From the NCBI GenBank assembly GCA_032358255.1, contig JAULBX010027164.1:1-40456 (forward strand): DNA of 40,456 nt, read 5' to 3'. The DNA is from Heterotrichella gracilis. Its lineage: Eukaryota; Sar; Xanthophyceae; Tribonematales; Xanthonemataceae. The notes beneath the pieces are model-generated. The model was given only the letters and a program-made list of their open reading frames with translations, had not been told where the DNA came from and searched no databases. Of this stretch, positions 1,437 through 36,945 are shown in pieces (position 1 is the stretch's first letter; the number at the start of each line of letters is the position of its first letter). A program made the translations under genes and the position numbers.

Positions 1437-4400
1437 CTACACCCTAGCCCCGCCACCACGCACCACTGGTGTGCATTTGAAGCTGACTTGCGTCACACTT
1501 GGGTAGCCGTTCCTGTACACGAACTGCCAGCCAGTGATGCGCCCGTAGATGCCGCAGTCAAAGTTGAATGTGGGCTGGTAGGACAGCAAGGTGGCATTGG
1601 GCAGGCCCAACAAGTGGATGATCTGCGGTGGGGAATGGGGGTGGGGGTTGGGGGTGGAGTTGGGGTTAAAAGTGGAGGTTTGAAGCTGGGATTAATGGTC
1701 GTGACGGGGATAGGGTGGGGGTTGAGGTATGGTGGGATGCGAAATTAATCAGACCACAAGATAGGTTTCTAGCACGTTTCGCATTGCTCGTGATTGGCGA
1801 GGCGGGTGGCTGTTACGGTAGTACTTGATTTCGTATAGGAAGCTGGCATGGGAACCAATGCATATGGTGCATAACATCTGCTTACAAACGTAATGAGGTG
1901 TGTTTAAGGGTTCATGCTTTAGGGCAAAGCAAGTGAATAGGCGCACGTGGTGGACTGGTTAGGGTTTAGGGTGAATGTTGGGCGCGTTGGGCATTTAGGG
2001 TTCCAAGGCGGTCGGGGTTAAGGGTTTAGGTTTTAGGCAGCCCTTGTTGAATCCTTGGCTTGCAGGGCAAGGTGTAGGGTGTAGGGTGTAGGGTTTTCCA
2101 CGTACGTTTGGCGTGTATTGAGATGGGGCATAATCGGTGTAGGACCATGAAACCGCCGCCTGGGTAAAGCCAGCGGGTGACGTTGCCGCAGGGTCGCCAA
2201 ACACGTATGTGTCTGAGCGCTTGTAGAGCAACGAGGTTCCATCGGTGCAGTTGGCTTCAAATGCCGTTGCTGCGGTTGCCACCCGCACAGAGGCCACCCA
2301 GGTTCCCTACACGAGGGGAAGGTGTGGAGGCGTTAGTGAACCCCAAACCCTAGGCTATGTACCCTACAAAGGAGCGGAGGCATAGGAACATAAACCCTAC
2401 ACCCTGAACCCTAAACAGCTGTGGCTGGCATTCAACGCTCACAGGCTGGCAGTGCCATTTGCACACAGGCGGATCCAAGGGTTTTAGGACTTACCGATGG
2501 GCACTCCTGCCTGGGCCCAGTAATCATGTCCGTGAGCCCGTCCTGGCGGGGCTTGTGGATTAGGGTTTAGGGCTTTAGGGTTTATGTTAGGGTTTGAGGT
2601 TTAGGGCTTACCGATGGGCACTCCTGCCTGGGCCCAGTAATCATATCCGTGAGCCCATCCTGTCGGGTGGGGAAGAACGGGCGCCAAGACACTGCGGGTG
2701 GATGGGAGCAGGGGGATGGGGATGAGTGAGGCATACCCTTGGAGAAGGGGTTCCAGGCAAAACCCTTGATGAGGGTTTCATGTGGGGCTTTGACGAGGGT
2801 CCCAGGCACAATCGACTGGAACATGGGTTTTAGGGAACCCTTGACGAGGGTTCCAGGCACAGTCGGCAAGGAGTAAGTGATTCAGGTGCACGCCCAAAGC
2901 GGTATGGGGGGCCATGGGGGGGGCTGCGACAATTTACAATTTATCAAATGTGGCACAGGGGGACATTAACAGAGGGGAAAACGGGGTTAGAAACAGGAGG
3001 ATAGGGTATGGGCTTCGATTGCCAGGTGAGGGGAGCATGCTAGGGATTGGTGTTAAGCATGTTGCGTAGGAAACCCTTGCCTTCATGTTTACGGTTGAGG
3101 GTTTATTTATTTGAAAACAGGGAACCCTCACCATCCTGAGGTGGCGCCGGTGGTGGTGGTGGTGGCGATGGTGGTGGCGTGGGTGGCGGTAATGGTGGCG
3201 ATGGTGGTGGTGGTGGAGGTGTTGGTGGTGGGGGTCTTGGTGATGGCGGCGGGGGGGGTGATGGCGGTGGGGGGGTTGGTGGCGGTAGGGGTGGTGAGGG
3301 TGGTGGTGGTGTGGGGGGCTTTGGTGGTGGGGGGGTTGGTGGTGGTGATGGAGGTGGGGTTGGGGGGGGGGCTGCAGATACACAACCCTAGGGTCACAAG
3401 GGCACTGGTAACCCCTGACAAAGGGTTATTTTGACAATGTAAACACAAAATTGGGGTTCACAAGCAAGTACAAACCCTGGCAAGGGTTTTGCCAATCTCG
3501 ATGTCAATTTGAGTCGTATTATATGCACAATCAAATAGCTTTTATTTGGTATTATTTGGTTTGGTTTCCCTATGCGCACTTGGTGGGGGAGGAGTGGGGG
3601 GTGGCGGCCTGGGTGGGGGGGAGGGGGGAGGAGGGCGCGGCGGCGGCGGGGTGGGTGGCGGCGGCGGTGGGGGGCTGGGTGGTGGCGGGGGTGGGGCTGG
3701 CGGGGGCGGCGGGGGTGGCGGGGGCGTGGGTGGCGGCGGGGTGGGTGGCGGCGGGGGTGGGGATGGCGGGGGCGGGTTTGGTGGTGGTGTGGGTGGGGGC
3801 AGTGCAAGCATGTCGCAGTAGAACCTCAGGTTGCGCACCCCGACAGAGTCTGCTGCAGTGCTTGGGCGCGACACCACTTCCACATCAAAGCCAACCTGCA
3901 GAATGCAGATGGCAACATAACAAGCCAGCAAATATGTCCACTTTCCAGCGTTGAAGCCTGGTCAGCATGCCGGGGATTGTCTCGGCCCCCAGTCTAAAAG
4001 CCAGGCCTTTTCTGACCCTCCATTGCCATCGAGGCCTCAAAAATCACGTAAATAGACAAATGGCCACATAAGCAAGTATGCGCACTCCGGCTGTGAAGCC
4101 ATACAACAATCTGCATAAACGCTAAAATGACATAAAATAAAACAAAAGAATCATTAACATTTATTTTATTTTGTTGTGCATTTCAGCTGTGAAGCTAGCT
4201 TGGCGTGTCTGAGTAGGCCTCTGGACATGGCAGCATGGAGCTTGGCCATAGAAACAAGATGAACCAGGCACAGGAAGGGGACACTGGGGAGGATTGCCCT
4301 CTGAGAGGGAAACCACGTACCACATAGCTGAGTGGGGGGCACACGCCAGGCACGTTGGCGGAGTCTTCACCATAGGGGAGGTTGTATGCAGCAAAGCCAC

Positions 4401-7400
4401 CAAAGCCACCAAACTCAATCCCTGAGGTGGTGGTGGGGAGGAGGGGGATTGTGGGTTTATATGTTGAGTTTTGCATGTGCATGGAGGTCGCTGGAACGGT
4501 TGGGTGGATGGAAACAAGGGGCACATGCGCTATGCAGTGACGAGGAATAGATGCAAGCAGAACCACCAGGCAGAGACGGCACCTAAACCGCTGAAAGCAA
4601 CCCCTGGCGTGGTCGGTGGGGCCATATCCTGGGCTTGGAATTTCTACCAGGTTTTGGAATTGTGAGATTGCATCGCATGACAGCCGGTGGAAGCAGCGTA
4701 TGGTGGATGAATCACATAACGAATGCCACCAGGAATGGGATTCTCAAGGACCCAAAATACGGCATGTGCAATGGTGGTGGTTGCTGTGGTGGTGGATGGC
4801 TGTGGTAATCCCCCAAACATCCCACACCCACCCACCTTCTGGCGTGGAAGGTGGGCGGTAAAAGCCCTGGCACACCCTCCCCAGAGATGTGTCTGTGAAG
4901 CAGTAGGTGTAGTCTTTCCCCCCGTTTGTGGCATCTGTGGGGGGGTAGATCTGTACAATGGGGAGGGTGCTCTGGTCGGTACAGTTGCCGCCCAGAGCGA
5001 TGGTGGTCCTGCGAAAGGGTGGGGGGTGGGGGTGAGGGGGTGGAGGCGTGGTGGAGGTGGGGGAGTGAGGAGCGAGGGGTGGTGGAGAGGGTGGAGGCGT
5101 GGGGGGGGAGGGGCGCCACTGTGGATGGAAGTCTAGTGGTGAAAACCCTGGGCGTGGTTCTGGAGGGTTTTAATTAAGGCCAGCTTAAGGGTCTGACGCC
5201 CGGGTAGCCAACTTAAGGGTTTGAGGTTTGGGGTCTGGGGTTTGGCCCAGGCTGCAATATCCCAGGACGTAGGCTTTAGGGTTTGGGGTTTAGGTTGGGC
5301 CCAGGCTGTTGCTTTCCTAGGACAAGGAGGGAAGGTAGGTGACATGGGGGAGGAAAGAGCCAAAGCCCTAAACCCTTAACGCTGGGTGACTCCCTTTAGA
5401 GTCCCCCCCATCTCGTGGTGGCACCACGAAAAGGAGACTTTCGGGAGCAAGGTCTAGGGTTGCACCCTGGGGTCTAGGGTTGCAGGGTCTTGCTCTCACC
5501 CGGCATAGCCGAAGTCCAAGTTCTTGATATCCCGGATCAAGGCAGTGAGATAGCTGCCAGGGGGGCACATTATTGTGCTGACGGCAGCATAGGATGCACC
5601 CACCGCGGGGCTGCCCAGCAGCGCGGATCGGGAGGTGAATGAGCGGGTGGGGGGCACGGGAGGCGGAGCTGGGAGGGGAGGGGAGGGAGGAGGGTAAGGA
5701 AGGGCGTGCACCCATGGGGACGCAGGTCAAGAGGTGCACTGTAGGGTACAACATCGATGCGATTCGCGCGCACATCTCTGATAATCAAGGGATACTGGCA
5801 ACGCCAAAGCACGCAGATCTTGCCAGAGCTTCCTGGCCAATCTCTACAGCATGGCCTATGCAGCTTTGGACCATTTGTCAACATTTAAAGCCATCGCCCC
5901 CCCTGCTCACCTATGTCAAAGCCAGAGCAGCGCCACGCCAGGCTGGAAATGTACCTCCCTGGGGTGGAATAACGGCAATTCTGGGTGTCATAAAAGGCGT
6001 CATTGCCCGCAACCACCGCCTCGAACCCCACCGCCACGCTCCCCTTGGGGCACTGCTGGTCAAAGGGGGTGTCGCCACATGCCCATTTGGTGTCCATTTG
6101 GTTGAGACCGCACAGGAAGGGTCCAAATCGCCCGCCGAAGCGCGACACGCCGTATGGGAAGGGGAGGGTGGTGGATTGCTTGAGGGAGTAGGGGTACCAC
6201 TGCATGGAGGGGGAGAGGAGTAGAGTTAGGCTTTAAGGTTGGGGGCAGCATTGCGGATTTAGTGGATGTTATTTCTTTTCATCCGTCCTTGCAATAGTAA
6301 TCTTCCTTCCAACGAGAGGTAGCCAGCCCCTTCATGTAGGACACCATAGTTTAAAACATTTAATGAGATTGCTCAGTCCATTACGCTAATTTTGGCTCAC
6401 TAATGTCACATCCATGCCGGGGGAGGGGAGGGGGATGAAGCTTTACGGTTTGGAGCACCACCGCAGATGTAGTGGATATAGTGCGTTTTACCGTCCTTGC
6501 AATGTTTCCTCCTAAGAGAACTACCTGCTCCGCTGACCAATGTAGGAGAACACAATATTAACACTATTAATGAAACTTCCTGATAAATGATGCTCTTATT
6601 TGGCTCACCGACGTCAGATCCACGCCCGGGTCGCTGGCCCCTCCCGAGCAGGCTATCGACAGCCTGACAATGGGGGGGGAGGGGTAGTAGCAGGGCAACC
6701 CAACCCTCGCGAGGGTTATTGCCGTGATGTACTGGCCCTCGGGGCAGGTGGTGTTGATGCTGGCCTTCACGCTGGCCTTTGCAGGGTCCAGAGTTGCCGT
6801 GAGTCGGGTGGTGGTGCCTGTGTGGGAGGGCGGGGAGGATCAGCGAGCTTTAAAGGCTGCAAAATAACTCGTTGACTCTTTGGCCAGCTTTCAGAGTGCC
6901 GTGGCAGGGTAGCAAACACAGTAGCCTGTGAGGGCGTGTGATGTGCGTTGGTGGTGCGGAGCTTACCTCTGAGGTGTTGGTTACATGACCAACTGGTGAA
7001 TAAGAATTAGACTTGAGCTACATATATGACACAAATGGTGTATACCCAACAAAACAGTGGGTGGATTTATTAGTCCATACGACGCGCACGGAATGCTTGC
7101 GCATGTGTAGCGAGATGGGTAACGGGGTAGCAATGCATGCATACTAAAACCGCACGTCAGCACCCACCATAGGCGGCCCACCAAGGCGCGGGTGGCGAGG
7201 GCGGGGCAGGCGGGTTGGGAGGTGGTGCAGGGGGGCTTGGGAGAGGGGGTGGGGATGGCGACCTTGCCACATACACCACGTAACTGACCGGATAGTATTG
7301 ATACTGGATGTAGTAGGGGATGTCGTGCGCCTGATAGCTGGTCCCCGTCAGCCTGGACACAAGAAATGGAAATCACTTTATACAATAGTGCTGACGGTAT

Positions 7401-12416: not shown

Positions 12417-15400
12417 ATGGGTGGGTGCTACCTTGCCACGGTATTGTGCATCGCATGCCTCGTGCGGTGCGGTTTCGGAGCGGCGTTGACCCGAGGCCCT
12501 GTGGCAAGGCGGACCAACAGCTCGCAGCAGGACGCCATTTGGTTCAAGGGGCACTGGAACTACGTGCAAGTGCGGCCTGGCGCGTACATGTTCTGGTACG
12601 GGCCAGGTCAAAGCCATGCATGCATATGCATGCAGTTTGGTGCACGCACTGATATGGACACTGTTGCACAGCTGGATGGCATGACAAGGCATTTGTGACA
12701 TGCTTTTTCCTTCCATCCCTTGTCAGCAGTGCATGCTTTCTTGCGCATATGCATGCATCAATGCATGCATGCCGATCCGGAACAGCTGAATGCACTGCAA
12801 AGCAGACTCGCAACACATTTCTCTATCTATATTTTTTTTATTTTGGAGCCAAGCAACTCGTGGCATGTGCTTTTCCCTGCAGGTTGTTTGCGCCATGCAT
12901 CGAGTGCCACCACATGTCCATATTTGAAGAGCCACTGGTTATATGGATACAGGTGGGTGGTCAAACACTGGAGCAGCAAGCAAAATGTCATGAGTCAACA
13001 TAGATGTCCATCCAAGCACGACTGCCATGATCTGAACTGCCCATCACAACACGCATGCCGCACTGGAGTTGCCGCACTGGAATGAAGCTATATGAGCAGT
13101 AAAGCCGCGCAACCGATGTATTCACTAGGTTACCTTGGCACTGCCTTGACACTGTCCTATTGAATTGGTTGCTCCTGATCAGTGTGTACCACACAAGTGA
13201 TTGGGTGTTCTGTCATTGCAATGCAACATGGCGTGGACACGGGAACCTGAAAGGTAGCCCTGCGTCACCTGCATGTTTGTTGCGATTCGTGCACATTCCC
13301 ATTCCCATCCCCATTTTTATTTCCATTCCCATCCCCATTATCATTTTTCAGGGCGCCCCAGGTGCATCCAACGCGTGTACACCATGTCACTTTGGTATTC
13401 CCGTTCAAAATTTGTTGGCAACCTGCAGCTGACATCGTTAGTACCATGCATCCAGGGAATACAGCCAGCGTTAGCAACGCTTATAATATATCCTGGCATT
13501 TCCCACCCCAATGGGCCTGTTTAACCCCCGTTTCTTGCCACCTATGTTTTTACACATACCCTATTTATGCTACCACTGCAGGGCGGCCCAGGTGCTTCCG
13601 GCGTGGGGTACGGCAATGTGGAGGAGATTGGCCCCTACAAGCGGTGGTGGAAGCCGCGCACCCACACCTGGGCCACGCAGGCCAACCTGCTGTTTGTGGA
13701 CAACCCAGTGGGCACAGGCTACAGCTACGTGGACAAGCACGGACAGTTTGGTGGGTGATCAAGGCGAAATTGCTTGACAATAATGAATATTATTTATTAT
13801 TCCGCCAGCAAATGATACACCACTCCGTCAAATATATAATCATTTTTTATTATTTATTCACATTGATGATAAAAAAAATGATTCTATATTTGACGGAGTG
13901 GTGCATCATTTGCTGGCGGTATGGCACGGTGGGGGTGGGTGTATGCGATATGTGCGCATGCATACTGGGAGCATGCCTGCAGCGTGGTGTGTACAGCGCT
14001 GTGGGCACAGGAGGCAGCTAAGTGGCTGGTTTGGTGAGTGCGCAGGGCACTCTTAAAATCTTGGAGGTCCAAATCAGTTTTTTTTCGGGGTTTTCCTTTC
14101 TGATTCTAACCCAAAAATATTTTCTGGGCTTTTTTGGAGGACATGCATTCAAACTGGCGGTATACAAAGTAGGTACTGCATGTCACCTACTAACAATCTG
14201 CTGGAGCCACCTGTGCAGCCACCGACAATGCGCAGATAGTCGAGGACCTGATGACGTGGTTCAACGAGTTTATTTCCATATTATAGAATATTAATAAAGG
14301 ATTTGAAATTACATCCACCTGTGCAGCCACCGACAACGTCCAGATAGCAGAGGACCTGATGACGTGGTTCAACGAGTTCCTGACAGGGCACTACGAGTAC
14401 CACGAGGCGCCCATCTACATTGTGTGCGAGTCGTACGGGGGCAAGATGGGCGCGGCGTTTGCCAAGCGGATCGTGCAGGCCCGGGACCAGGAGGGGCTCA
14501 AAATCAACTTGAGGTATGATTAATGAATGAGAAATGCAAAAAATGATGAATAATATATAGGAGTATAAGTAATATGGGGCCAAGTGGGTCGTGACCAGGT
14601 GGGGCTCAAGATCAACTTGAGGTACGATTAAGTGAATAAAGAAATAAAGCAATAAAATATAACTTACTGATAAAAGGCCAAGCGGGTTGTGCATGCTCAT
14701 ACCCAGGAGGGGCTCAAGATCGATTTGAGGTACGACCACATAAAAGAACAACGAAATGATGAATAAATGAGTAAGGTGAAGGGTTAACGAAGGTGAAGTA
14801 CAAGCATGGCACTGTTGTACATACACACACTTGTGCAATCAATCTGCGGCTCGTGCCGTGGTTTCTAGGGGCTCGGATGGATACATCGAGTCATGGGAGC
14901 ATGGATAAAGGAACTTCCACTCAAGTATTAAAATTAGCATTGTTAGATCAACTGATATCAAATCTGGTGTAGCTGGGCAGTGGCAAACAGCTAACCATGG
15001 GCATATGCAGGGGGATTGCTCTGGGAGACTCGTGGATCTCTCCGCTTGACTACACTGACTCATGGGGCGAGTACTTGAAAGCGCTGTCGCTGCTGGATGG
15101 GGAGGAGTTCAACCAAGTGCAGATGGTCGCGGCAACAGCCAAGGCAAGTGGACTTTTTCTGGTGTGCGGTTTAGGGTGCAGGGTATAGGGCGAGCGAACA
15201 ATACACCTGGTTGCATGCCGCCATCACAGCATGCGCCCCAGGAGGCATTCATCATTAGTTTAATGACGAGTGCCTGCACATGCTGCATGCATGCTAGTAG
15301 AGGAGCATTGCGTGCCAGCCAGTTCAAATATCAAAATCCTACCTTGCCATGAGAGTAAAACCTGCGCCACAGCGTCAACCGCCGCAATGCCACCCTGCCC

Positions 15401-17236
15401 TCCACTAAAGACTGAACCCTGTAATGTACTGTGTATCAGGCGGCGGTTTAGGATGGCAATTTGACCCACGCCACCGAGCTGTGGGGCCAGCTGGAGGAGG
15501 TCATCGCCAACCTGACTGCCAATGCAAACCCTAAACCCTAAACTTCCCTGTGCTGAGTCAGAATCAGCAACATACGGCAGTGTAGGAGCCGGTCCAACCC
15601 TGATTTTTGTATTTACTGCTTGGCAGGCAGCGGTGAAGGATGGCAATTTGACCCATGCCACCGAGCTGTGGGGCCAGCTGGAGGAGGTCATCGCCAACCT
15701 GACTGCCAATGTGGACTGGTACAACGTGCTCATCCACCACACGCCAGAGGAGGAGGAGCAATCCATTGATGGCAACGGCCTGCTTGCTGCTTGGAAGGAG
15801 GTCGACGGTAAGGGTGGACCATAATGTTGCTGGTGCTGTGTTCAGGGTTTTGTAGGGGGTTGAGGGGAGGTTCCACCAACTTGATGGTGGACTTGTTTTT
15901 AGGGCAGGTGAGGGTGTAGGGAAGGCGTCTAGCCATCTGCGTGACTCTGTCCAGTGCGCGGGATGCTTACATGGTCGTGGTGTGGTGTGTGCGTGGGATC
16001 CCCCAAGAAGCTGCAGCATTGCACTACCTGAACAGGTCCAAGCAGAGCTGTTGTGCGGGGGTTCCTCAATGGAACTGCAGCACCCCAAAATACGTACAGC
16101 CTTTGTCTTTAGGTTGCCGGTTATGCAAACATACCATGCTCTAATCGCAGGTGCCGCTCTGTGAACCCTAAAGCTGAACCCAAAACCCTACACGCAGGCC
16201 TGCAGCCCGCCGCGTTGCGCATGCTGCAGCGGCACCACCCGCATAGCCTGGCCAAGTTCATGAACGGAGAATTTAAGGACATGCTGGGCATAGTGCCTGA
16301 CGACGTCACCTGGGGGGGCCAGTCCGGGAAGGTATTCAAGCACCTGGCTGGGGATTTCATGGTGGATGTGATCGGCGTGGTGGATGAGCTGCTGAACGCT
16401 GGTGAGCAACCCTGGATCCTAAACTCTAAACCATGAACCCTAAACTCTCTTTAATTGGCTGAAGCTGTAAACCCTATTCACTCCTAGATTGCACCTGGCG
16501 GGGATTTTCATGGTGGATGTGGCCGACGTGGTGGACGATATGCTGAACGCTGGTGAGCAAACCCTAAACCCTAAACACTCCTAATTGAAATCCATGGTGG
16601 ATGTGATCAACGTGGTGTACGACCTGCTGAACGCTGGTGAGAAACCCTAAACCTAACCCCCAAAACCTTAACCCTCTTAGATTGCTCGTGGCGGGGGAAA
16701 TCATGGTGGATGTGATGGAAGTGGTGGACGACCTGCTGAACGCTGGTGTGTACTTCCTAAAGCTATACCCTAAACCCTCTTAGGTTGCGCCTGGCGGGGG
16801 ATGTTATGGTGGGTGTGATCGATGTGGTGCACGACCTGTTCAACGCTGGTGAAACTGGTATTCATGTGTTGCCCGGTGCTGACCTTGCAAACCTGTACCA
16901 CCCCCTGCAGGCGTGAACGTCACTGTGTACAACGGCCAGCTGGACCTCATCTGCGCCACACTGGGCACCGAGCGGTGGATGAACAAGCTCACCTGGCCCG
17001 GCTTGGGCGCCTTCCAACGCGCCAAAATGGAGCCCATCGTGCTGCACGAGAAGGGCAAAGCAGACACCGTGGGGTTGATGAAGTCGCACCAGAACCTGAA
17101 CATGTATGTGATGCTTTCTGCGGGCCACATGATCCCTTCGGACCAGCCCGAGGCAGCGCTGGCCATGCTGAAGCTCATCATGAGCGACGTGGCGGCTCCG
17201 GACCAATCTGTGGCGTCGACAACAGCTGCTCGTTGA
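12417..17236 (+). CDS. Retinoid-inducible serine carboxypeptidase-like (SCPEP1, peptidase S10)
   Basis: Exons: 12417-12595, 12883-12952, 13582-13750, 14327-14513, 15011-15143, 15627-15807, 16198-16401, 16911-17236; 482 aa, phases all consistent. This is a secretory or vacuolar/lysosomal serine exopeptidase that removes C-terminal residues. A signal peptide spans residues 1 to about 24. Family landmarks include WIQ-GGPGAS around the exon 2/3 join (oxyanion hole), GNVEEIGP, LLFVDNPVGTGYSY, ESYGGKMGAAFAKR with nucleophile Ser175, ALGDSWISP, ATELWGQ, NGQLDLICATLG with Asp386 and AGHMIPSDQ with His447. The pattern matches animal and plant SCPEP1/SCPL proteins more closely than yeast CPY. Intron 5 starts with GC (AAG|GCAAGT), chosen because it alone keeps phase and the family spacing. 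The exon 1/2 join restores a Trp codon at the conserved MFW position. Introns are full of partial exon copies. Confidence 0.9.
13304..13345. repeat. CCCATT/CCATT microsatellite
   Basis: A pyrimidine-rich run of CCCATTC and CCCCATT units lies in intron 2 of the carboxypeptidase, immediately upstream of a decoy copy of the exon 3 start. Confidence 0.8.
13352..13371 (+). repeat. Echo of carboxypeptidase exon 3 start
   Basis: TTTTTCAG is followed by GGCGCCCCAGGTGCATCC, nearly the same as the true exon 3 start at 13582 (GGCGGCCCAGGTGCTTCC). Similarity fades within about 20 nt. The Gly-Gly-Pro-Gly motif would become Gly-Ala-Pro-Gly, so this is not a usable exon. Confidence 0.6.
13802..13919. mobile_element. 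Fold-back palindrome (MITE-like) in intron 3
   Basis: Arms of about 47 nt (13802-13848 and 13871-13919) are near-perfect inverted repeats, both ending in CCGCCAGCAAATGAT..., around an AT-rich loop of about 22 nt. The element is far AT-richer than its neighbours. No clear target-site duplication is visible, so mobility is inferred only from shape. Confidence 0.6.
14219..14265 (+). repeat. Echo of the 5' part of carboxypeptidase exon 4
   Basis: The copy keeps the CTGTGCAG acceptor and about 47 nt of the exon 4 start, then diverges into AT-rich sequence. The true exon begins at 14327, about 108 bp downstream. Confidence 0.8.
14583..14729 (+). repeat. Two echoes of the 3' end of carboxypeptidase exon 4
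   Basis: Copies at 14583-14621 and 14676-14729 repeat the last 40-54 nt of exon 4 (true end 14513). Each finishes in TTGAG followed by a GTACGA donor. They lie in intron 4. Confidence 0.85.
15440..15524 (+). repeat. Echo of carboxypeptidase exon 6 with a stop codon
   Basis: About 85 nt almost identical to the start of exon 6 (15627) follow a GTATCAG acceptor. The fourth codon is TAG (15449-15451), where a GTTTAGG heptamer-like change replaced GTGAAGG. The copy ends in CCCTAAACCCTA units. Confidence 0.88.
16493..16848 (+). repeat. Four echoes of the 3' end of carboxypeptidase exon 7
   Basis: Copies end at 16552, 16636, 16745 and 16848. Each repeats the last 45-65 nt of exon 7 (true end 16401), including a G|GTG donor-like end. 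They recur about every 100 nt and are separated by CCCTAAA-type tracts. Confidence 0.9.
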
Positions 17237-22100: not shown

Positions 22101-23672
22101 TCCCCAGGTCCCTTTCCAACACCGCAACAAGCACCACCACGACCACCACCACCGCAGCCACCACCGCCTACGCCCCCACCGCCGGTGCCACCACCCTCAC
22201 CGCCCGCATCCAGACCAGCGAGGGGGGCCAGGTGCAGGCGCGGGTGGTGGCGGCTGCGGGTGACGGCACACTGGCTGATGACCTGGCGGGTCTGGGGCTG
22301 GAGGTGGGCCCCTGGGGACTCACCATTGATGGCAAGGTGGGGTGCTTGGGTTGGCATGGCATGGTTGGGGTGGGTGCATGGATTGCACCAGGGATGACCA
22401 CTGGTTGTAGAGGTGCTGCGCCCTTTTTAGGGTTTAGGGTTTAGGGCGACAGCAGCCTGGCTGATGGCCTGGCAGGTGGGCTAGAGGTGGCGCAATGGGA
22501 CTCACCATTGATGGGAAGGGGGGGAAGGTGGGGATGTGGATGGTCAAATGTTGAGCAGCAGGGGGGGGTGCGTTAGTTGTGTGGGTGGTGTGCTTGTTGT
22601 GCATGGGCAATGTGCATGTATCTGCTCAACAGGTAGGAGCATGGGCATGTGTGGCTGCGCCACCTTGCAGGCAAATGACATGCTGCACCATCCTACACCA
22701 TATAACCCCTGGTGGCGCTGCTGGCAATCGACGCGCTATGCCACCCAACATCCTAAACCCGAAAATAAAACCTAAACCTAAACCCCCTGATGGCACTGCA
22801 GGCAATCGACGCGTTGCGCAACTCAGCCACCACAAGCGCGGGCACCAGCAGCGCCAGTGCGGGCAAGGGAACCCAGGGGAACAGTGGAAAACCTACCCCT
22901 GCACCTCTGAGTGGAGGACGGATTGCTGGCGTTGTCATCTGCAGCATATATGGCACCCTGGTGGTGGTGGCGCTGGTCATTCTGCTGGCGGCCATGGGCA
23001 GAAAGGTGTGTGCTTGGGACACATGCGTTGATGTGCCTGCATGCGACGCCCCAAACAAGAATGCAGGAGCCTGAGGACATTGTAGGCATTGGGAAAATGG
23101 ATGCGATGGTAGTGCATGCGGTGTCATTGACTGCATGTGCGTGAGCTGCGTAGTGCGCTTTCCGATGGGAAGTCCGTCATTTGTGCAGCTGACATTGCAG
23201 CACACTCCCGCCTGTCAGCATGCTGGACTAAATTGCTATCACAAACCCCTCCGTATTGGGGCGTGCACGTGCATGCAATTACTGAGTGACTTGATGTAGT
23301 TTACTTGCATATACTGTACATTTTATCACTCACCTCGTTATCTTGTTTTGCTCTCTGATCCCCCGCTGGTCCGCCCAGTGCACTCAGCCATACATACGAC
23401 ACTGCAGACCCCTATCGCACCCTCCCTGTCCCCCACAGGCACGCGTCCAGCGCCAGCAGCTGCCCATCACCCACCCACGCACCCACGCCAAGGCTACCCC
23501 CAGGCATTACAGCAGGATATGCAGTGTGGTGGCATCAAGCACGCCTGAGAGCCCCTCCGCTGCTGGCGCACCCAGCACAGCATCACCAATCCCCACCACG
23601 CAGCGCCACCTCTCCCCACCACCCCACACACACTCCAGTCACCAGCCTGAGCTGCTGCATCCCACGAGGTGA
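19193..23672 (+). CDS. Unrecognised type I single-pass membrane protein (about 7 exons)
   Basis: Exons proposed: 19193-19337, 19612-19766, 20290-20319 (a 30-nt micro-exon, uncertain), 20989-21447, 21828-22336, 22802-23005, 23439-23672 (stop TGA). A strong signal peptide (Leu/Ala-rich, ending AHVRAQ) is followed by a Cys-containing ectodomain, a Pro/Ala-rich stretch, and a Thr/Ala-rich region with ATTQVQALVAEAAGVSPDDV, a helical pattern that recurs more weakly as QVQARVVAAAGDG. One membrane helix follows (GVVICSIYGTLVVVALVILL), then a basic tail starting RKARVQRQQ. This topology fits a cell-surface protein; I do not recognise the family. The frame changes within 21298-21313: upstream codons end AYAYGG and downstream codons resume as VGSSYVPTAG. 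Either one base is missing in the G-rich run or a splice there was not resolved. Confidence 0.62.
19949..20250 (+). repeat. Echoes of exon 2 end and of exon 3
   Basis: At 19950-19990 the end of exon 2 (GCCAGTACATCACGCTCTAC) recurs in decayed form. At 20096 and 20194, after TGCAG, two further copies of the exon 3 sequence (GGTTCC...CCGGCCTCACCCTGGTCA) precede the third at 20290. CCCTAAA-type tracts separate them, and it is unclear which exon 3 copy is spliced. Confidence 0.75.
20678..20940 (+). repeat. Echoes of the exon 4 start with CAATCATGATC-type filler
   Basis: CGCAGGACGTGACCATCAG, the acceptor and start of the true exon at 20989, recurs at 20772 and 20906, and more diverged at 20678. 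The filler between copies is built of ATCACAATCATGATC variants, some of them palindromic (GATCATGATC). Confidence 0.85.
21495..21602 (+). repeat. Two echoes of the exon 4 end
   Basis: TTGGCATTGGCGGCAATAG and TTGGCGCTGGTGGCTGCTG repeat the exon 4 end GGCCCTGGTGGCAATAG (true end 21447), each followed by GGTG. TTTAGGG-like units lie between them. Confidence 0.65.
22447..22745 (+). repeat. Echoes of the exon 5 end and the exon 6 start
   Basis: 22447-22525 is a decayed copy of the last 80 nt of exon 5 (true end 22336). 22727-22745 copies the exon 6 start (GCAATCGACGCG, true start 22802). Both are in intron 5, with CCTAAACC-type units between 22750 and 22790. Confidence 0.75.
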
Positions 23673-25252: not shown

Positions 25253-28200
25253 ATGTTTCGCACTGCTGCCAGCTTCATATCAGGTCCAGGCGCAAGTGAC
25301 AACACATGTGCACTCTTCTTGAACAGCCCCGTTGGGTTGGGGTCGTTTGCCAGAATTAGTGTGCCACTGGCACAAGTGCCACTGCAGAACTCAGACGACT
25401 TCTCAGATGACTGGGAGGCATCTGAATGCCTCCTATCACACCAGTTTGCAGACCCATGTGGTACAGCCTCATCCCACTTGCAGCTGTTGGAGGTTTGTGC
25501 AAACCTCAACTCAGTGCAGCTGGGAGGGCCTGTTGTTGCCTGGCCTTGCAGTGACAGGTGCCTGCAAGTTGTGTGTCACAAGGTACGAGTCCTCTATGCA
25601 CATCCATGGCTTGGTTCAATAGTCAGTTATCAGCTACACCCATACCACCTGTTGCTGCCCCAGGGGGGTAACAATTGTGGGTGTACACTGCAGACTGTCC
25701 TCACCAAGGTCTTCAAAGCCTTGGCATCAAGTCAAAACATGCTGAAAGTCAAGATGAAGGACGTGAAATCAAGTATACAGCTGGGCAAAATGTCTTGCCA
25801 GGAGCTCACGCAGTGTGTGAAAAGCGCTGTGCAGAAGTCACTGGAAATGTCAGGCTGGTCCCGAATTGACAATCCTCTGGCAGCATCTGACACGTGCCTG
25901 ATACGCGTGGATGTGGCAGCTGCTGAACCTGGGCAGCTGTGTGTCGCTGACTACATTGAACTGGAAGCTGACGCTGCATCAGAAGACTCCGTAGTGGTCA
26001 TGGTGAAACCAGGCAAGTATCAGTGGTATTGAAATAATGCAGACACATGGCGCAGTATCCTCCAATCGCTGCGGTAGCATCATGCAATATCATAGTCAGT
26101 AAACTTGTGGCATGCAACGCATGTTTCCCAAGCGCCATGGAATAAATTATTTGGAATGGCAATGCACGACGTTAAATTAACAATCCTGGACATGATTTGT
26201 CAAGTAAATGCTTATGGCTGCAGGCACAGTGCGCTTCAAACCATTTTCTGTCAACCGCCTGTTGAACAAGTCGCAAGGTTGCGCACTGCCCGACTCACCC
26301 CAAGAGTGGAAGGATGTGAGCAGAGCAATGAAGGGCGCGCCATGCTTTCTGCTTCCCGACCTGCGGTGTGTGTGCGCATGCAGTGCATATGCAAAAATCC
26401 ATGCACAGCGGATGTACCCAAATTGAGCAAGATCAAGACATCAAAGTAGAGTGAAAACTAACCTGCGCAACCCACTTTGTGGTTTACTATTTCCTGTTTG
26501 TGTCCAATCCTTCACTGCTACTCCATTTACATATTTATTCAGTGAAGAGCCAAGGGTTATTGTTTCTTATTTGTTGCACTTGATCACTGTAATTCACGGT
26601 GGTGTGCTTGCAATCCAGGCGTGCAGTCCTGTGGTCAGCTATGCCAACATACAAAGATGCAGCCGCCTTGAAACAATACTGGAAGAGCCACATGGGCTAC
26701 AATTTCACAGAACCTATCACGTGTTTTTTGGAAGTCAAGATGCTGGACGATGACATGGCCCCCAGTCTCGTGTATCCCAGTTGTTGCGTGTGGACCTTGG
26801 CAAGCATCTCATCTGGCAACCTGGCACCTTCACAAGGGGCTGCAGTGGTTGACAATGTCACACGTGAGTCCACACTGTACACCTACGTCACTGCATGCCA
26901 CTTAGTGCGTCATCACTCAATGTGACTGAGAATTGTCTCCTTGCAACAATGCATTCATATGACCATGCTGCACTGCAAGCACTCACTTTTCAAGGAACAT
27001 AAACGTGCAAAATACATGCTTGAATCTTGTTTACTATCTAGTAAAGATGATTTTAGCTAAACCTGTGACAATGTCACGCGTCAGTCCACAGTGCACGATA
27101 CATTGCTGCATGTTACAAACTGCACCATCAATGAATGTGACTCAAGAATATAACTCTTCAAGATGGTGGCACCTTGGATGCAAATGCATGAACCTTGTTT
27201 AGCATCTGGGCTGAAACTGTGGCTCGTACGGGATCACCCAGAGGCCATTTACATTTTGCTTGAAAATTACAAATGCACTGATTACTTCCTCCATGTTCAG
27301 GAGACATACTGTGCAGCCCATTCAAGTTCTGGGGAGGACAGAATCTTCAAAACAGCCTGCCATCGTTGATCACACCTGATCAGCCAGCTGCCCACCATGA
27401 ACAAGCAAATCGGCGCACAACACAGCCAGCGCAACCGATGAAGCTAGCATCTCAGTGGGTCAGCGGATTGCAGATTGCAGAAAAGGACGAGCACCAATTC
27501 ATGGGGTTTACAAACCTGAATCACGCCAAATCCTCCCCAGCGATGGGCGGCAGCTGCAGCCATGAGCTGGCAGTTGGAGATGGCGAGGGCATGTGGGATA
27601 CCCTGCACAGTGGGACACCTGCAGAGGCTGCTACACCAGCAAATGATCATTGCGCTGAAGGCAGTGTCAGCAAGCTTCCAGTGCGTCACCATCAGCAACA
27701 GCATCTGCCACCTGACCTGGCAGCCTACCTCAAGAAGCTTAGCCAGTCAAATGACAGTGGCAACCGCCAGATAGCATGCAATACACCGGTAAGGAGATGG
27801 GCAATTCATGCATGCATTGCAGCAGAATACAAATTGCAGTTCCAATCACATGATGCTGATAACTGGCCCAAGCTGCACATTCCTAACACACACATGACTC
27901 ATGCTGGCGTATTTGAGCCTGCAGTACATCTCATTTCAGAAGGTTGATAAGGGTTGTCTAAACGGGAATAAGATGGTTTCCTTCTAACAACAGACGCCCA
28001 AGCCTCCTCCACGGCAGCTCGCACTTGCTCCTGGGCCACCAGTGAGGCCAGTGTTTGGCAAAAGGCAGGTAGATACCAACATCCAACTCGCCATTGGCAA
28101 GGCGCCCAAACCTCCCAAGGCTGCCAATGCTGCCCAGAAACCAAAGGCCTGCAAGCCACCAAAACCACCTGCGGCAAAAGTTGACGCTCGTGCCCAGCCC

Positions 28201-29955: not shown

Positions 29956-30186
29956 ATGGTGGACCAACTTGATAAGTCTGAAGCCGTGAGTCTGTCGGTA
30001 GATCAGAGGGCAAGTTTGAAGGAAACAGCCAGGCTGACAGGCTTGGATCTGAGGGACGAAGTGCTTGACATTCTCTTGGACCTGCTGTGCACTAACATCT
30101 CTCCAACCAACTTTGCCAGCGTCCTCAGCCTTCTCTGCCCAAAGACAGCAGCCACATCCAGCAAGTACACGGGGCAAACCAGCTGA
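29956..30186 (+). CDS. MOZART2-like gamma-tubulin complex-associated small protein
   Basis: A single-exon frame of 76 aa. Residues 20-60 (TGLDLRDEVLDILLDLLCTN, then ISPTNFASVLSLLC) match the MZT2/MOZART2 pattern: an acidic-hydrophobic helix with 'ILVDLL', an N-(V/I)-x-P turn and a second helix ending LC. MOZART2 proteins are short helical partners of gamma-tubulin complexes at microtubule-organising centres, so a centrosome/basal-body role is inferred. The N-terminus is shorter than in animals. It ends only 65 bp before the AP-1 mu start codon on the same strand, which suggests a shared transcript. Confidence 0.6.
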   Translation: MVDQLDKSEAVSLSVDQRASLKETARLTGLDLRDEVLDILLDLLCTNISPTNFASVLSLLCPKTAATSSKYTGQTS

Positions 30187-30251
30187 CACCATACCTTCAT
30201 AGGCACACAGCGGGGGCAACCGGTTCTGGCGTTACGAGCACACACCACAGG

Positions 30252-32451
30252 ATGGCAGCCTCAGGCGTGTTCATCCTTGACTTGAAAGGCCGAGTCTTGC
30301 TGGCACGGGACTACCGTGGCGATGTGCCTGTGAAGCACGCAGACAGGTTCATCACCAAGCTGAACGAGCTGGAGGAGGCAGGCAAGCTGTCCCCTATCAT
30401 ATACGATGAGGGGATCACTTACCTGTATGTGCAGCACAGCAACCTCTACCTGATGGCAGTCACCAGGACAAATATCAACGCAGCTGCAATCCTGGTATTC
30501 CTGCACCGGCTGGTGGAGGTGTTCAAGCACTACTTCCAAGAGTTTGAGGAGGAGTCCTTGCGGGACAACTTTGTGATCGCCTATGAGCTCCTGGATGAGG
30601 TATGCAGAGCTGCTACTAGCTGAGCTGTTGCAGGAAAGCACACATCTGCCTCTTACATAAGTGAAGTAACACACTTGTGAATGCAGGTGATGGACTATGG
30701 CTACCCACAGTTCACAGAAGCCAAGATCTTGGCGGAGTTTATCAAGACAGATGCCTACAGGATGGCGGTAGGTTTAACTACACCAAACTTTCCTAATGCC
30801 TACTGTCTGCTCTTTGGGCTGTGTGAGACGATGCTGTGTCCCTGGCAGGTGCAACCCAAACCCCCAATGGCAGTGACAAATGCAGTGTCTTGGAGAAGCG
30901 AGGGCATTGCCTACAAGAAGAACGAGGTGTTCCTGGACGTGGTGGAGAGTGTCAACCTGCTGGTGAACAGCAACGGGTCAGTGATACGCTCAGAGGTGGT
31001 TGGGGCGCTGAAAATGCGCACATTCCTGAGCGGCATGCCAGAGTGCAAACTGGGGCTGAACGACAAGGTACTGGTCCTTACCCACTATGTGCTCATCGGT
31101 TGTCACTGTATCTTGGGCTACCTGGTCTAGCTGTCTCATAGTTTATCACTGGAGCACAAACTCCTCTGCTGAACCCACTGTATCGAACCCACAGGTGCTG
31201 TTTGAGCAGCAAGGGCGGGCAGGGAGGCAAAAGGCTGTGGACCTGGAGGACGTCAAGTTCCACCAGTGTGTGCGCCTTGCACGCTTTGACAACGACAGGA
31301 CGATATCCTTCATCCCACCTGATGGCTCCTTCGACCTCATGTAAGCTATCCACTGTACTGAACCCTAAACCCTAAGCTTTGCTAGCATTGCGCATTTGAC
31401 AAGTCACTGGCTTCAGACCCGTTGACTGCCTAACATCCCTGCCTAACATCCCTGCAGGTCATACCGATTGAGCCAGAACGTGAAGCCCTTGATCATTGTG
31501 GAGTGCTCGGTTGAGCGCCACAGCCGCAGCAGGATAGAGTACCTGGTCAAGGCCAAATCGCAGTTCAAGGAGCGCAGCACAGCCAACAACGTGGAGATCC
31601 TGCTCCCACTGCCAGCGGATGCAACACTGTCTGCAGCGGCCAAGACGTCGCAGGTGGGTAGGGCTTTGGGCTAGCTCATTGGGCGTTGCTGACCTCATGA
31701 AGGCAGTGAACTGCGGCTGCATTGGCCTGGGCATGTTTGGTATTTGTCACAGGATTAGGGTACTAAATTGCATTTGCTTCGACAGAGCAATAGTTAGTTA
31801 GTTACATGCATTCCAGCAAAATAGCCAGATTAGCAGTCAGTCTTGCACATGCGGCGCCACGCAGCTCTTTCCTGGCACTGTTTGAACCATCTGTTGATCC
31901 CACGCGAGTTGACAGAGCAATAGGACAGGGTTATGCTGTTGGAAGGACCAGAGCCATATGGGCTGACCTTGCGTTGCATGGCCTAGCTGCATTGCAACTG
32001 TAAGATTCAGAATTAGTATTGGCGGTGCCAGGACAGGCCTGCCTGGCGCTGTGCGTGCAAGGCTGATTGGTCAACTTGGGTTGCAGCGGGATGCATGTAC
32101 TCTGACAATTCTGCATGAGGGCATGCGCATTGACGTGGCCATTGCGCGTTGCACCTGCAGGGCACCGCTGTGCACGCCCCCGAGAAGGAGGCCCTGATCT
32201 GGAAGATTAAGAACTTCCCTGGCGGCCGCGAGTTCCTGCTGCGGTGCAAGTTCAGCCTGCCGTCGGTGGAGGCGGAGGATGAGCAGCACGGGCGCATGCC
32301 CCCGATCCGGGTCAAGTTTGAGATCCCCTACTTCACTGTGTCGGGGATCCAGGTGCGGTACCTCAAGGTCATTGAGAAGAGCGGGTACCAGGCGCTGCCC
32401 TGGGTGCGCTACATCACTGCAGCGGGCGAGTACGAGATCAGGATGGCGTAA
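30252..32451 (+). CDS. AP1M: AP-1 clathrin adaptor complex, medium (mu) subunit
   Basis: Exons: 30252-30599, 30687-30767, 30849-31067, 31195-31340, 31458-31653, 32161-32451; 426 aa, the usual length for AP-1 mu. It sorts cargo with YxxPhi signals into clathrin-coated vesicles at the trans-Golgi and endosomes, as part of the AP-1 heterotetramer. The start MAASGVFILDLKGRVLLARD is characteristic of mu1. An N-terminal longin-like domain spans about 1-140. The mu-homology domain follows from about 160 and contains WRSEGIAYKKNEVFLDV and SGYQALPWVRYITAAGEYE. Asp173 and Trp411 correspond to the tyrosine-motif pocket residues of mu chains. AP-1 is favoured over AP-2 by the VPVKHADRF region and the GTAVHAPEKEALIWKIK segment. 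Introns use GT-AG and begin mostly GTA/GTG. Confidence 0.95.
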
Positions 32452-32469
32452 GCTGCAGCTGCTGCACCG

Positions 32470-32862
32470 CCTGTCAACAGGACGAGTGGCCATGTAGTTC
32501 AGCCGGGTGTTTCTGGCGTCAGTTCCATCTACCACCGGGGAGGGCGTGTGCCAGGTGCTGTCCTGGATGCGCCGCATCACTGCAGCGGGCGGTTGCAGCA
32601 TCAGGATGGCATAAGCTGCAGCTGCACGCAGGTCGACCGAAACACGTTGCCATTCAGATCAGCCGGGGTGCTTCAGCTATCATTTCCATCCATCATTGAT
32701 AAGAGCGGGGTTGCAAGATATTGCCCTGGGTACGCCACAGCAAGGGCAGAATGAGGATGGCATACGCTGCAGCTTTGGATCAATTCAATCAACAATTACT
32801 CGTATGCTGCTTGCATGTAGCTGCACGCCTGTCATCAGGAACACGTTGCTGTTCAACCAGTC
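32470..32862 (+). repeat. Decayed tandem copies of the AP-1 mu 3' end
   Basis: The stop-codon region of the last exon (CTGCCCTGGGTGCGC... GGATGGCGTAAGCTGCAGCT) recurs at about 32525-32630 and, weaker, at 32695-32780. A fragment of the adjacent 3' UTR recurs at 32814-32862. These are the same kind of copies as in introns, but in a 3' flank. Confidence 0.75.
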
Positions 32863-33753: not shown

Positions 33754-36700
33754 ATGGCTGCTCTCGGGAAGACCTCTGGGCGTATCATGCACAAGCTCCG
33801 CAATGTAAGTAGCCATGGTAGGAGGTCCCTCATAAACCCATGCTTGTTATGGGTTCCGACCCCACCATGGGCCCCAGTGCACTGCTGCAACTTTTGTCGC
33901 TCTTAACCATGCTTTTCTTGAGCCAGGCTTGGTACTGTAGTGAACACTAGAGACCACTAGTGCTACTAGCTAAGCCCAACTCAGCACTCCTGTGGACTGT
34001 GTTCAGAAGTTCCTTGTAACTACAATTGTATGTATTGGAGTACCTGCTGAGCAATGAGAAGCTCCAAAAACTACCACCAGGCCCTGCAGGCATTTAGCTT
34101 GCCCCCATCCAAGGCTGAGCCTCACAGTGTTGGCAAGGCATATGCACAGGGTACTAGCGGTGCTCACTAAGACTGATTGAAACACCTGGCCCATTGTAGT
34201 TGCATTCATTTGGCAATGCGGGGCCTGCATGCACCGACGTGGTGTGTCCATTTGCAACCGCATGGCAATATCTCAAATCCCAAGTGAACTGGTTGCAGCC
34301 TCTGCCAGGCATGCAGCCAAATACCTGATGTCTTTTGGATGCATACCTGGCAGGGTCTGCTCCAATTCCCTTGCGATTGGGTGCATTGCCATGGGGTTGC
34401 AAATCGGCACACACATGCGTGCATGCAGGCCCTGCAGCACGCAGCGTGCAGCAGGTGTGAATCATTCCCATCCAGCCACCCTGCGGGATGCCTTCCCCTG
34501 CAACCGACATTTCAGTGGCACTCATCATACACCAGCACCCCATTGCATGCATGTGGCCCCTAGTCGGTTTCAGGGCTTGCCGCAATTCACTGTGCATCCA
34601 TTGAGACCTCTTGCATGCGGTCCCAACCCTGCTGACCACCCACCGCATGTCTGTAATTCACTGAGCCAGAAACATCCATGCCGTTTCACTGTAAGTGCAG
34701 CTGTGCGCCATGCCGCTGACCCTGCAAGGCCACTCATGCCTCCCACTGTCTACGGGAGCTGGCCACTGCTGTAAGGGGCGCTGCCCTGGGCTTGGCACTG
34801 GTGGCGCACCCTGGCCTAGAGGCTCATTTCCATATGCTGACTCACATGACCCCCTTGCAGCCGCAAGCAAGCAGACCACTCGCCTCATCTCTGTAGCACA
34901 AATACCCAAAATCCTGTATGGAGTTTTCCGTCATGCACGGGTTTGAGCCACCCATCTCTCCCCTTGCCTGTAGGTGCCAGAGCTGGCATTTGCTGCTGGG
35001 GGCGCAGCCCTGGGCCTGGCGTTGGCGGCGTACACTGGCGCATTCACCTCCAGCACCATGGAAACGTGAGTTTAGGGTTTAGGGTTAAATGGCCTTGCGC
35101 TGGCGGCGTACACTGGCGCATTCACCTCCAGCGCCATGGAAACGTAAGTCTAGGGTTTAGGGTTAAATGGCCTTGCGCTGGCGGCGTACACTGGCGCGTT
35201 CACCTCCAGCGCTGTGGAATTGATAGCTTAGGGTGTAGGGTTCAGTGGGCCGTGCACCAACACCATGCATGGCGCCAGGGGTGTTAAGATGTATAACCAG
35301 AGACTCTTGCTTTATGTAAGGACACCCTTGGCGCCTTGGCACGTGAATGGGAGATGTACGTGTGTCCAGGGGTATCCAGGGGGTTTAGGTTCAGGCTCTT
35401 TGGGTTTTAGGGTGTATCCAGGGGTACCCAAATAAGGAGAAAACAGTGAAATAAATAGTCCACACCCTGACATTATGAAGGGGTGGGGGTCATTACGATT
35501 GTGTATCCTCCCCATGTTTAATTTCAATGTGGTTATCATCCACATTATTCTGATGATCTATTCCAATCGTTTACTATCGTTTTGTTATAATTACTGGTTT
35601 TTGTGTGCAGCGCCGAGATTGAGGCTGGTGGCGCCACCCAGTCTGTCATGAGCGCACCCAACGCCACACCTGACACCAGCGCAAGGCCCTCGGTCTTCAG
35701 GAGGCTGAGCAAGGTGGGTGGGCTGGCTCAGATGTTCTAGGGTTGGGTTTCGGAGGTTTAGGATTTGTTGCGCCCGACAGCAGCGCTATGCGCTCTGTGT
35801 TGAGGAGGCTGAGCAAGATGGGTGGGATGGTTTTATGCTTTTTAGGGTTGGGAGTTGGAGGTCTAGGGTTTGTTACACCTGACAGCACCACCAGCCCCTC
35901 AATGTTCAGCGGGCTTTGTAGGGTTCCAGGTGTCAGGTTTAGGGTTTATGGTCCTGGCGGCTGCGCCAGACCCTTGGTGTTGAGGAGGCTCAGCAAGGTG
36001 GGTGGACATGGGGCACCTGTAGGGTTTCCTGGTGTGAACGTATAGGGTTTAGGGTTTATGGTCCTGGCGGCTGCGCCAGACCCTCGGTGTTGAAGCGGCT
36101 CAGCAAGGTTGGGGTGGACGTGGGGCGCTTGTAGGGTTTCCCGGGGTTTAGGGTTTAGACCAGCTGCAGCCACGGAACCCTAAACCATCAACATTTTCCA
36201 CCTCTGTCTTGGTGGACAGATGTAGCCCAACCCTAGGGGGAGGGTATTCTGTACCTCACAGCGACGCCAGGCCCTCGACGTTCACGAGGCTGAACAAGGT
36301 GGGTGAAAGGGGGGCGTGTAGAATTGAATCAGGGGTGGTTTGGAGTAAGGGTGGTATTTTGCGTGCAGCAGCGTTGGGCCCTGATTGGTGGGCAGGAGGC
36401 TAATCAAGGTGGGCGGTTAAGGTGCCTGCTTTCGTGCGCAATGGTGTGCACATGTGGGACTTCCAATTTTGGTTTTTTCATGGCGAGATTTGTTAAACCT
36501 CGGGTGATGAGCAGGATATTTCATATCAATTAAAATCTGAAATGAGGAAAACTGCACCCCCTGCTTGCAGATGTCGTGGGGACGCCAGCCAGGCCAAATC
36601 CTGTCCCTGCGGGAGGACGCACCACAGCCCCATGCAGGCAGCCAGCAGGGGGCACATGCATAAATCTACACAACATACTGATAAAGCTAGTGGTTTTCTC

Positions 36701-36945
36701 GGTTTTTGTTTGGCACATATTTTCGAAAATACAAGCGCCCTTTTTCCCAGTTAACAGTCCCGAATATGCTGTCCCCGCAGGCCTCCTGGGGACAGCAGCC
36801 CGGCCACATCCTCCCCATGTGGGGGGGCGTTTCCCAGGGTGCGCCCCGGGGTGGCGCCAGCAGCCAGCAGGGGGGGAGTGATAGCGCTAGCGAGGACGGG
36901 GATAACGGCCCCCCCATCTCCATGCTCACGCCCTGGAGTGCCTGA
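33754..36945 (+). CDS. Small single-TM protein, unknown family (4 exons)
   Basis: Exons: 33754-33804, 34974-35065, 35611-35713, 36781-36945; 136 aa, phases consistent. A short basic N-terminus (MAALGKTSGRIMHKLRN) precedes an Ala/Gly/Leu-rich membrane helix (about 20-42, PELAFAAGGAALGLALAAYT). A Ser/Thr/Ala-rich segment with a basic FRRLSK patch follows, and then a Gly/Ser-rich acidic tail ending LTPWSA. The basic lead and single helix would suit a mitochondrial or endomembrane tail-type protein, but this is inference. An alternative last exon at 36571-36663 is also in phase. Introns carry about ten partial copies of exons 2, 3 and 4. A TGTAA at about 37807 may be the poly(A) signal. Confidence 0.6.
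34752..34812 (+). repeat. Upstream echo of exon 2 (TM helix)
   Basis: GGGAGCTGGCCACTGCTG...GGCGCTGCCCTGGG resembles exon 2 (true start 34974) with several substitutions and lies 220 bp before it in intron 1. Confidence 0.7.
35088..35220 (+). repeat. Two tandem echoes of the exon 2 end
   Basis: Two units of about 73 nt repeat the last 50 nt of exon 2. The first keeps a GTAAGT donor (at 35144); in the second the donor is gone. Each unit is preceded by GTTTAGGGTTTAGGGTTAAA, so the echo plus telomere-like tract is the repeat unit. Confidence 0.9.
35774..36408 (+). repeat. Six echoes of the exon 3 end
   Basis: Copies end at about 35817, 35920, 35997, 36107, 36298 and 36408. Most read like AGGCCCTCGGTGTTGAGGAG followed by GCTCAGCAAG. 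Four keep an AAG|GT donor (35997, 36107, 36298, 36408); the first has AAG|AT and the second is badly decayed. TTTAGGG tracts lie between copies. Confidence 0.85.
36571..36663 (+). other. Alternative or relic terminal exon
   Basis: After TTGCAG, an in-phase frame reads MSWGRQPGQILSLREDA and stops at 36661-36663. It is a homologue of the proposed last exon at 36781 (ASWGQQPGHILPMWGG). Splicing to it would give a shorter C-terminus. It may be a live alternative exon or another echo. Confidence 0.6.

Follow-up and report, generated by a model that had tools for sequence, protein, structure and literature searches.

The window analysed here, bases 1-40,456 of contig C466 in a Heterotrichella gracilis assembly of 68.5 Mb and 903 contigs, carries genes whose introns contain truncated copies of the ends of the adjacent exons, which we call echoes. 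A self-trained gene finder yields sensible models in the window, and individual exon calls may be wrong; earlier settings, which merged or over-split genes, were superseded by later ones. Of the 11 whole or partial proteins scanned, 8 gave Pfam matches, those without a match being one of seven in one set and two of four in the other. Among the echo-bearing genes of the window are a serine carboxypeptidase (Peptidase_S10, E 1.1e-81, two gene models joined by hand), the protein of the gene holding the array at 16340..16852 being Peptidase_S10 by Pfam, and a gene for an Adap_comp_sub protein (E 2.2e-83) that we take to be AP-1 mu. Outside the window, echo parents include genes with Pfam matches to GH20 hexosaminidase, eIF2D, pyruvate kinase, Vps18, HisG and a KH protein. 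A scan of the window for RNA families and transfer RNAs found none. The window was studied together with 15 samples at fixed positions (L016-L032 minus L020 and L027), with L027, picked around a weak match, and with L033-L035, selected by telomere motifs. Low-complexity repeats and the bacterial sample L020 were excluded, and genes scoring below 30 and introns shorter than 50 nucleotides (nt) were left out of the counts. L020 (C180:20001-30000) lies on a bacterial contig with a G+C content of 0.376, so the assembly is not axenic; its open reading frames, PorP/SprF-like and others, are presumably Bacteroidota-like.

That the exon-end copies are genuine and local is confirmed, and their number greatly exceeds chance. 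When introns were compared with their adjacent exons, a score of at least 50 was reached in 41 of 636 flank tests (318 introns), and in 29 of 430 for the fixed samples alone, against 0/636 with shuffled introns, 0/636 with reverse-complemented introns and 0/1908 with exons from other genes; non-adjacent exons of the same gene reached it in 1 of 602 tests. This comparison with shuffled controls had been proposed in a preliminary description of the window, and its outcome bears out the view expressed there that copies adjoin their parent on the same strand and that the phenomenon is not exon shuffling. Comparison of the window with itself also finds direct repeats at exon edges in the places named there (Table 1). 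The extent of the phenomenon had been put too high. Arrays, one or more per model, are present not almost everywhere but in 5 of the window's 7 multi-exon models, in 11 of 29 in the fixed samples, 1 of 2 in L027 and 5 of 8 in L033-L035; of the 19 algal samples other than the window, 14 show repeats at exon edges. As for the six or more unrelated genes counted earlier, five have exon-edge repeats (the gene finder splits two of them), but in AP-1 mu, which would be the sixth, the repeat runs across the stop codon and involves no splice site. We give virtually no credence to the idea that the copies are an assembly artefact: the draft does contain a bacterial contig, but the copies occur on many contigs and their decay is codon-aware.

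Table 1. Exon-end copies and related repeats in the window
Position	Strand	Feature	Details
2483..2667	-	Copy 2483-2550 of small exon 2612-2659 including splice sites; parent 2600-2667	94% over 68 nt, 117 nt apart; exon from gene model
6203..6630	-	Old repeat 6203-6422 / 6413-6630, mainly intron, reaching end of exon 6609-6817	69% over 228 nt; exon 0.10, intron 0.90
13350..13390	+	Possible decayed acceptor-side copy, start of exon 13582-13750	By eye; absent from BLAST hits
14207..14270	+	Acceptor-side copy, start of exon 14327-14513 (serine carboxypeptidase)	92% over 64 nt vs 14315-14378, includes 12 nt of intron
14461..14767	+	Donor-side array: copies near 14569 and 14677 of exon end 14461-14513	Period 108; last copy identity 0.79
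15424..15524	+	Acceptor-side copy, start of exon 15627-15807, then CCCTAAACCCTAAA	91% vs 15611-15711
16340..16852	+	Parent exon end 16340-16401 and four donor-side copies (near 16491, 16593, 16702, 16805), some spacers telomere-like	Self-comparison
19731..19991	+	Donor-side copy 19950-19991 of exon end 19731-19766	83% over 42 nt
20088..20335	+	Short exon-like unit with acceptor, three times, period 96-98, telomere-like spacers	86% over 152 nt; true exon among copies unsure
20666..21013	+	Acceptor-side copies, start of exon 20989-21305	Self-comparison
22258..22524	+	Donor-side copy 22444-22524 of exon end 22258-22336; TTTAGGGTTTAGGG precedes copy	80% over 85 nt
22692..22813	+	Acceptor-side copy 22692-22735 of exon start 22802; repeat 22692/22771	84% over 44 nt
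26850..27142	+	Donor-side copy 27066-27142 of 26850-26927, exon end 26863	76% over 78 nt
32378..32774	+	AP-1 mu coding end and stop codon repeated into 3' flank (32378/32541), no splice site	70% over 250 nt, 163 apart
34756..35039	+	Acceptor-side copy 34756-34815 of exon 34974-35065 (parent 34980-35039)	78% over 60 nt
35013..35248	+	Donor-side tandem array, 78-nt unit of exon end, donor and TTTAGGGTTTAGGG (35013/35091/35169)	89% over 158 nt
35652..36305	+	Exon end 35652-35713 and four donor-side copies (35756, 35936, 36046, 36237) with TTTAGGG units	Self-comparison, one repeat family

Roughly half of the copies end close to the splice site. In the filtered list 37 of 52 pairs are flush with it. 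The earlier statement that copies stop at the exon/intron edge is too strong, for 18 of these 37 are also similar on the intron side above the 95% level of the null. Parent-copy identity in successive 10-nt steps is 0.89, 0.84, 0.78, 0.69 and 0.61 towards the exon and 0.66, 0.42, 0.38, 0.38 and 0.35 towards the intron, where the null gives 0.53, 0.28, 0.25, 0.26 and 0.25. The inner end of the copies falls within the exon and, by eye, mostly carries no second splice site; GT follows two acceptor-side copies, again by eye, and many copies retain GT or AG. Spacers measure 25-214 nt (the copy at 14207..14270 goes with an AT-rich one of 44 nt), and the distances between copies cluster near 104 and 191, a two-mode fit being better by 5.4 to 5.6 units of the Bayesian information criterion; this is no more than suggestive. 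The median intron length is 367 nt where echoes are present and 229 nt where they are absent. Among the 34 pairs with a gap of at most 3 nt, 17 lack intron-side similarity, indicating a filler that is not homologous to the flanks. Repeated slippage, one of the processes proposed earlier, fits the arrays in which the whole unit is repeated in tandem (35013, 16509), but many pairs have a spacer dissimilar to the flanks. The exon that is parent to the array at 16340..16852 was called as 16198-16401 in one run of the gene finder and extended to 16436 in the final run. One candidate for the pattern that intron gain by tandem duplication would leave, a copy flush with the opposite splice site and an intron equal to the unit, is intron 5209-5404 of L024 (distance 195); in the same sample the region of the hexosaminidase HMGGDEV motif is present three times (3322-3917), with one copy reading GGNEV and two called as exons. 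Identity between parent and copy among flush pairs ranges from 0.78 to 1.00, which supports the earlier notion of a local process continuing over time; in the few arrays looked at by eye, the age of the copies shows no trend with distance from the parent.

The arrays are biased towards exon edges. In a location test over 46 genes (145 kb), the share of the parent lying in the exon was 70-99% in 28 of 54 arrays, 30-70% in 13 and below 30% in 4; the parent was fully exonic in 5, both copies were exonic in 1, and 3 arrays were intron-only. Uniform placement would give 8%, 15% and 10% for the first three classes, 25% for fully exonic parents and 42% for intron-only arrays. The fixed samples alone (33 arrays) yield 20, 8, 1, 2 and 2 in the same order, and nine gene models picked for their Pfam matches 12, 4, 2, 3 and 0. 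Ordinary tandem duplication occurring anywhere, and visible only where splicing renders it harmless, might produce echoes of this kind, since boundary events require no function and whole-unit tandem arrays exist. Intron-only events, however, would be neutral and about equally detectable, yet 3 are seen against 28 (3 of 31, binomial p 3e-19; 1e-8 under a harsher null). Indeed, when repeats of the form T-filler-T, with T the duplicated stretch, were planted, recovery of intron-only and of 70-99% boundary cases was 123/135 vs 25/28 at 4% divergence, 120/140 vs 18/21 at 8% and 75/115 vs 17/22 at 12%; the bias is therefore not due to detection. This explanation is strongly disfavoured and we consider it quite unlikely; unbiased tandem duplication filtered by selection was rejected on the array locations and the planted-repeat simulation.

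Alternatively, the exon itself could fix the break points, perhaps where mature RNA forms putative hybrids with the gene that end at splice sites, or through putative exon-positioned nucleosomes. The excess of arrays in the 70-99% class would follow, as would the drop in identity from 0.89 to 0.66 across the splice site (null 0.53) and the two preferred distances. Almost half of the flush pairs run into the intron, however, and the AP-1 mu edge has no splice site; as a rival explanation this seems unlikely. That gene structure sets the break points, splicing-defined exon edges being preferred as duplication ends, for example when hybrids of mature RNA with its own gene are processed into staggered breaks, is possible in our judgement, if rather doubtful; introns of this lineage would in that case lengthen mainly from their own exons.

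Judging by their substitutions and gaps, the copies are probably mostly neutral and appear to evolve like unused DNA. In 46 pairs, differences from the parent number 70, 63 and 148 at codon positions 1, 2 and 3 (rates 0.083, 0.075 and 0.177), a pattern that would fit a free copy beside a parent changing chiefly at silent sites, and 14 of the 21 gaps in copies are of 1 nt. On these two grounds we read the copies as unused, and the role of decoy splice sites once suggested for them finds no support in such mostly neutral behaviour. One could still imagine that the copies are alternative exons or regulatory decoys under selection. Many keep GT or AG, the gene finder made an exon of the 48-nt unit 2495-2542, which keeps the frame, and the copies contain fewer stops (4 in 808 codons vs 8.6 simulated) and fewer amino-acid-changing codons (122 vs 191) than simulation predicts. 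Since the simulated parent undergoes no silent change itself, a weak constraint on the copies is conceivable. The predominance of 1-nt gaps, the equal rates at positions 1 and 2, as expected for unused copies next to a constrained parent, and the rarity of a second splice site at the inner end nevertheless make selection on the copies very unlikely. Protein-coding constraint was tried as a candidate and finds no clear support in the codon-position and gap data; no full exon copy was found to be under such constraint, the copy of exon 2612-2659 being a possible exception.

Some echoes include telomere-like DNA, mainly those of the window and of the motif-rich samples, but such DNA is not a general cause of echoes. 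Genome-wide there are 5629 occurrences of the dimer TTTAGGGTTTAGGG and 5 of its reversed control, and in the fixed samples the two telomere 7-mers reach 1.07 per kb in introns, 0.14 in exons and 0.65 elsewhere. Of 240 telomere-like runs in introns without echoes, 120 are no more than 45 nt from an intron end, where 93 are expected (p 0.0003), the figures for the fixed samples being 57 of 124 and 46 (p 0.03). A telomere 7-mer is found within 30 nt of the inner end in 15 of 52 copies and of the splice-site end in 12 of 52, compared with 11% of random intron 30-mers; TTTAGGG/CCCTAAA units thus do occur between copies, but not usually, as had been stated. Direct repeats around telomere-like tracts are partly established. 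At non-overlapping loci, such repeats flank 40 of 200 telomere-like clusters of at least 10 nt and 24 of 395 other sites, with no inverted ones, and with clusters at least 500 nt apart the counts are 19/112 and 7/233. Against intron-internal controls, all annotated loci together give 33/132 vs 58/528 (p 0.0001), and clusters 500 nt apart 16/75 vs 32/300 (p 0.02). By eye, L027 offers one suggestive case of an ancestral end in register with a telomere repeat. Near the acceptors of introns without echoes, 42 of 53 telomere-like runs are in the CCCTAAA sense, as if TTTAGGG, which brings an AG, were selected against.

Adjacency to the parent, same orientation, near-neutral decay, exon-edge bias and spacers that belong to no family characterize the copies. 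We tentatively place first, at somewhat short of an even chance, a recurrent repair of staggered breaks at exon edges that doubles the broken stretch around a filler, sometimes telomere-like. In its favour we count the near absence of inverted copies, the codon-position and gap figures, the locations of the arrays, the abundance of the telomere dimer, the direct repeats flanking telomere-like tracts, the two spacers unmatched elsewhere in the genome, and the tandem duplications described at breaks with overhangs (PMC8355091). According to this scenario, in which we infer staggered breaks, fill-in, capture of telomeric filler and tolerance by splicing, a break with staggered ends would span, at the exon edge, a stretch T some tens of bases long, fill-in at both ends would double it, and the ends would be joined, often around a filler that is at times telomere-like, to give T-filler-T. 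One copy of T would retain a working, rightly placed splice site, and splicing would excise the other copy along with the filler, so that the event would be tolerated and the spare copy would decay; repeated events would build arrays and lengthen introns. The AP-1 mu repeat, in which the stop codon stands in for the splice site, suggests that tolerance, and not splicing itself, decides survival. A third copy of this repeat may be present near 32700, by eye.

Several results weigh against recurrent break repair with filler. Staggered breaks at random places would not produce the exon-edge bias. Moreover, 37 of 52 fillers are free of telomere motifs in the 30 nt next to the inner end, and in the 15 fixed samples alone there is no excess of flanking repeats at intronic telomere tracts (13/63 vs 45/252, p 0.59), the excess deriving from the window and the motif-chosen samples. 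The connection with telomere-like DNA made in the preliminary description is partial, holding when all annotated loci are set against intron controls but not in the fixed samples by themselves. Finally, in 8 acceptor-side pairs lacking intron-side similarity, the pyrimidine tract scores 0.71 in the parent and 0.56 in the copy (p 0.016; whole acceptor score p 0.055), and a better parental tract suits copying into the ancestral intron better than T-filler-T.

Such copying is the basis of templated insertion, in which a break in an intron is repaired by copying the nearby exon end, through polymerase theta or replication template switching, and T is pasted into the ancestral intron. The homology that often stops a few bases from the splice site, the weaker splice context of copies in pairs without intron-side similarity, and two spacers with no second match genome-wide (a third has only partial matches) are all in line with it. 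Templated insertion should, however, produce both orientations, and direct copies are nearly exclusive: the filtered repeat list holds no inverted hit, reverse-complemented introns gave none, as reported above, and three inverted hits appear only when the complexity filter is removed. Intron templates should also be as common as exon ones, whereas 3 of 54 arrays are intron-only. The local process postulated earlier thus stands, but its repair-coupled templated form lacks the expected inverted copies, and we regard it as doubtful. A genome search with the spacer 15525-15626 returned no second match, and no paralogous locus with an empty site was found for two echo-rich pieces of 3.5 kb.

Introner-like mobile elements are a further conceivable source, as the insertions measure about 100-200 nt and lie beside splice sites, and one element of 38-76 nt does recur across several introns. 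This element, with the core CAGCAAAATAGCCAGATTAGCAGTCAG, is present in both orientations in introns of several genes (44, in the window, 286, 301, 200 and 153). On the other hand, 597 of 666 rows of cross-gene intron matches are telomere-like (39 of the remaining 69 were inspected), and the spacers just mentioned have no second genomic match or a partial one. We therefore consider this origin highly improbable; a mobile introner was rejected, no shared spacer family having been found in the cross-gene intron and genome comparisons.

Some other features of the window deserve mention. The contig opens with a run of 76 C (1-76), possibly a sequencing artefact. Two palindromes within introns, 13799-13922 and 34217-34436 (86% and 77% self-complementary), resemble fold-back elements. 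Two proline-rich genes with their upstream regions, 8983-11403 and 37996-40354, form an inverted duplication, one at each end of the window, and are presumably pherophorin-like.

Introner elements are intron-associated insertions spread genome-wide, a trait shared by the echoes, for which no common family was found, unlike introners. Duplication of mutually exclusive exons also generates local exon-derived copies; those described here are mostly truncated, near-neutral and mostly devoid of an inner splice site. Models of intron gain include those for Daphnia and for AGGT. In intron gain by duplication, as in the echoes, duplicated exon sequence is rendered harmless by splicing, but here no clear new intron arises; existing introns are lengthened, with the copy inside. 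Vaughn and Bennetzen (2014) reportedly found, among natural insertions in rice, tandem duplications from staggered breaks or adjacent nicks. The echoes resemble duplications of this type as short direct duplications explicable by overhang fill-in, and differ from them in their strong exon-edge bias, their recurrence at one site and their frequent spacer. Tandem duplications are described at breaks with overhangs, CST-Pol alpha-primase acting at 3' overhang breaks (PMC8355091), and intron gain through tandem duplication or break repair with filler (PMC3296678). Short interstitial telomeric sequences are telomeric repeats inserted at breaks, and at a few horse loci they come with direct target duplication, the same layout as here (PMC7215372). 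The share of human interstitial telomeric sequences lying in introns fits random insertion according to the same source, in contrast to the intron-dense distribution, somewhat enriched near splice sites, seen here. Chlamydomonas and its relatives have conspicuously long introns of no known advantage (PMC8226300). The statement that no named description exists thus holds for the combination within the literature searched, but the parts have precedents in PMC8355091, PMC7215372 and PMC3296678. In the titles and abstracts covered by the searches the combination is not described, which does not prove its absence, as subscription papers were mostly beyond reach. The combination would be a variant of local break-repair duplication.

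If recurrent repair at exon edges is the true origin, echoes would make a source of intron growth countable in a small genome, their copies representing many stages of decay. The bias towards exon edges, explained neither by detection nor by neutral survival, would tie DNA breakage to exon structure. Echoes would also be a natural test of how far splicing tolerates duplicated splice sites, and introns filled with decaying, apparently unused ends of neighbouring exons offer an unusual view of intron growth.

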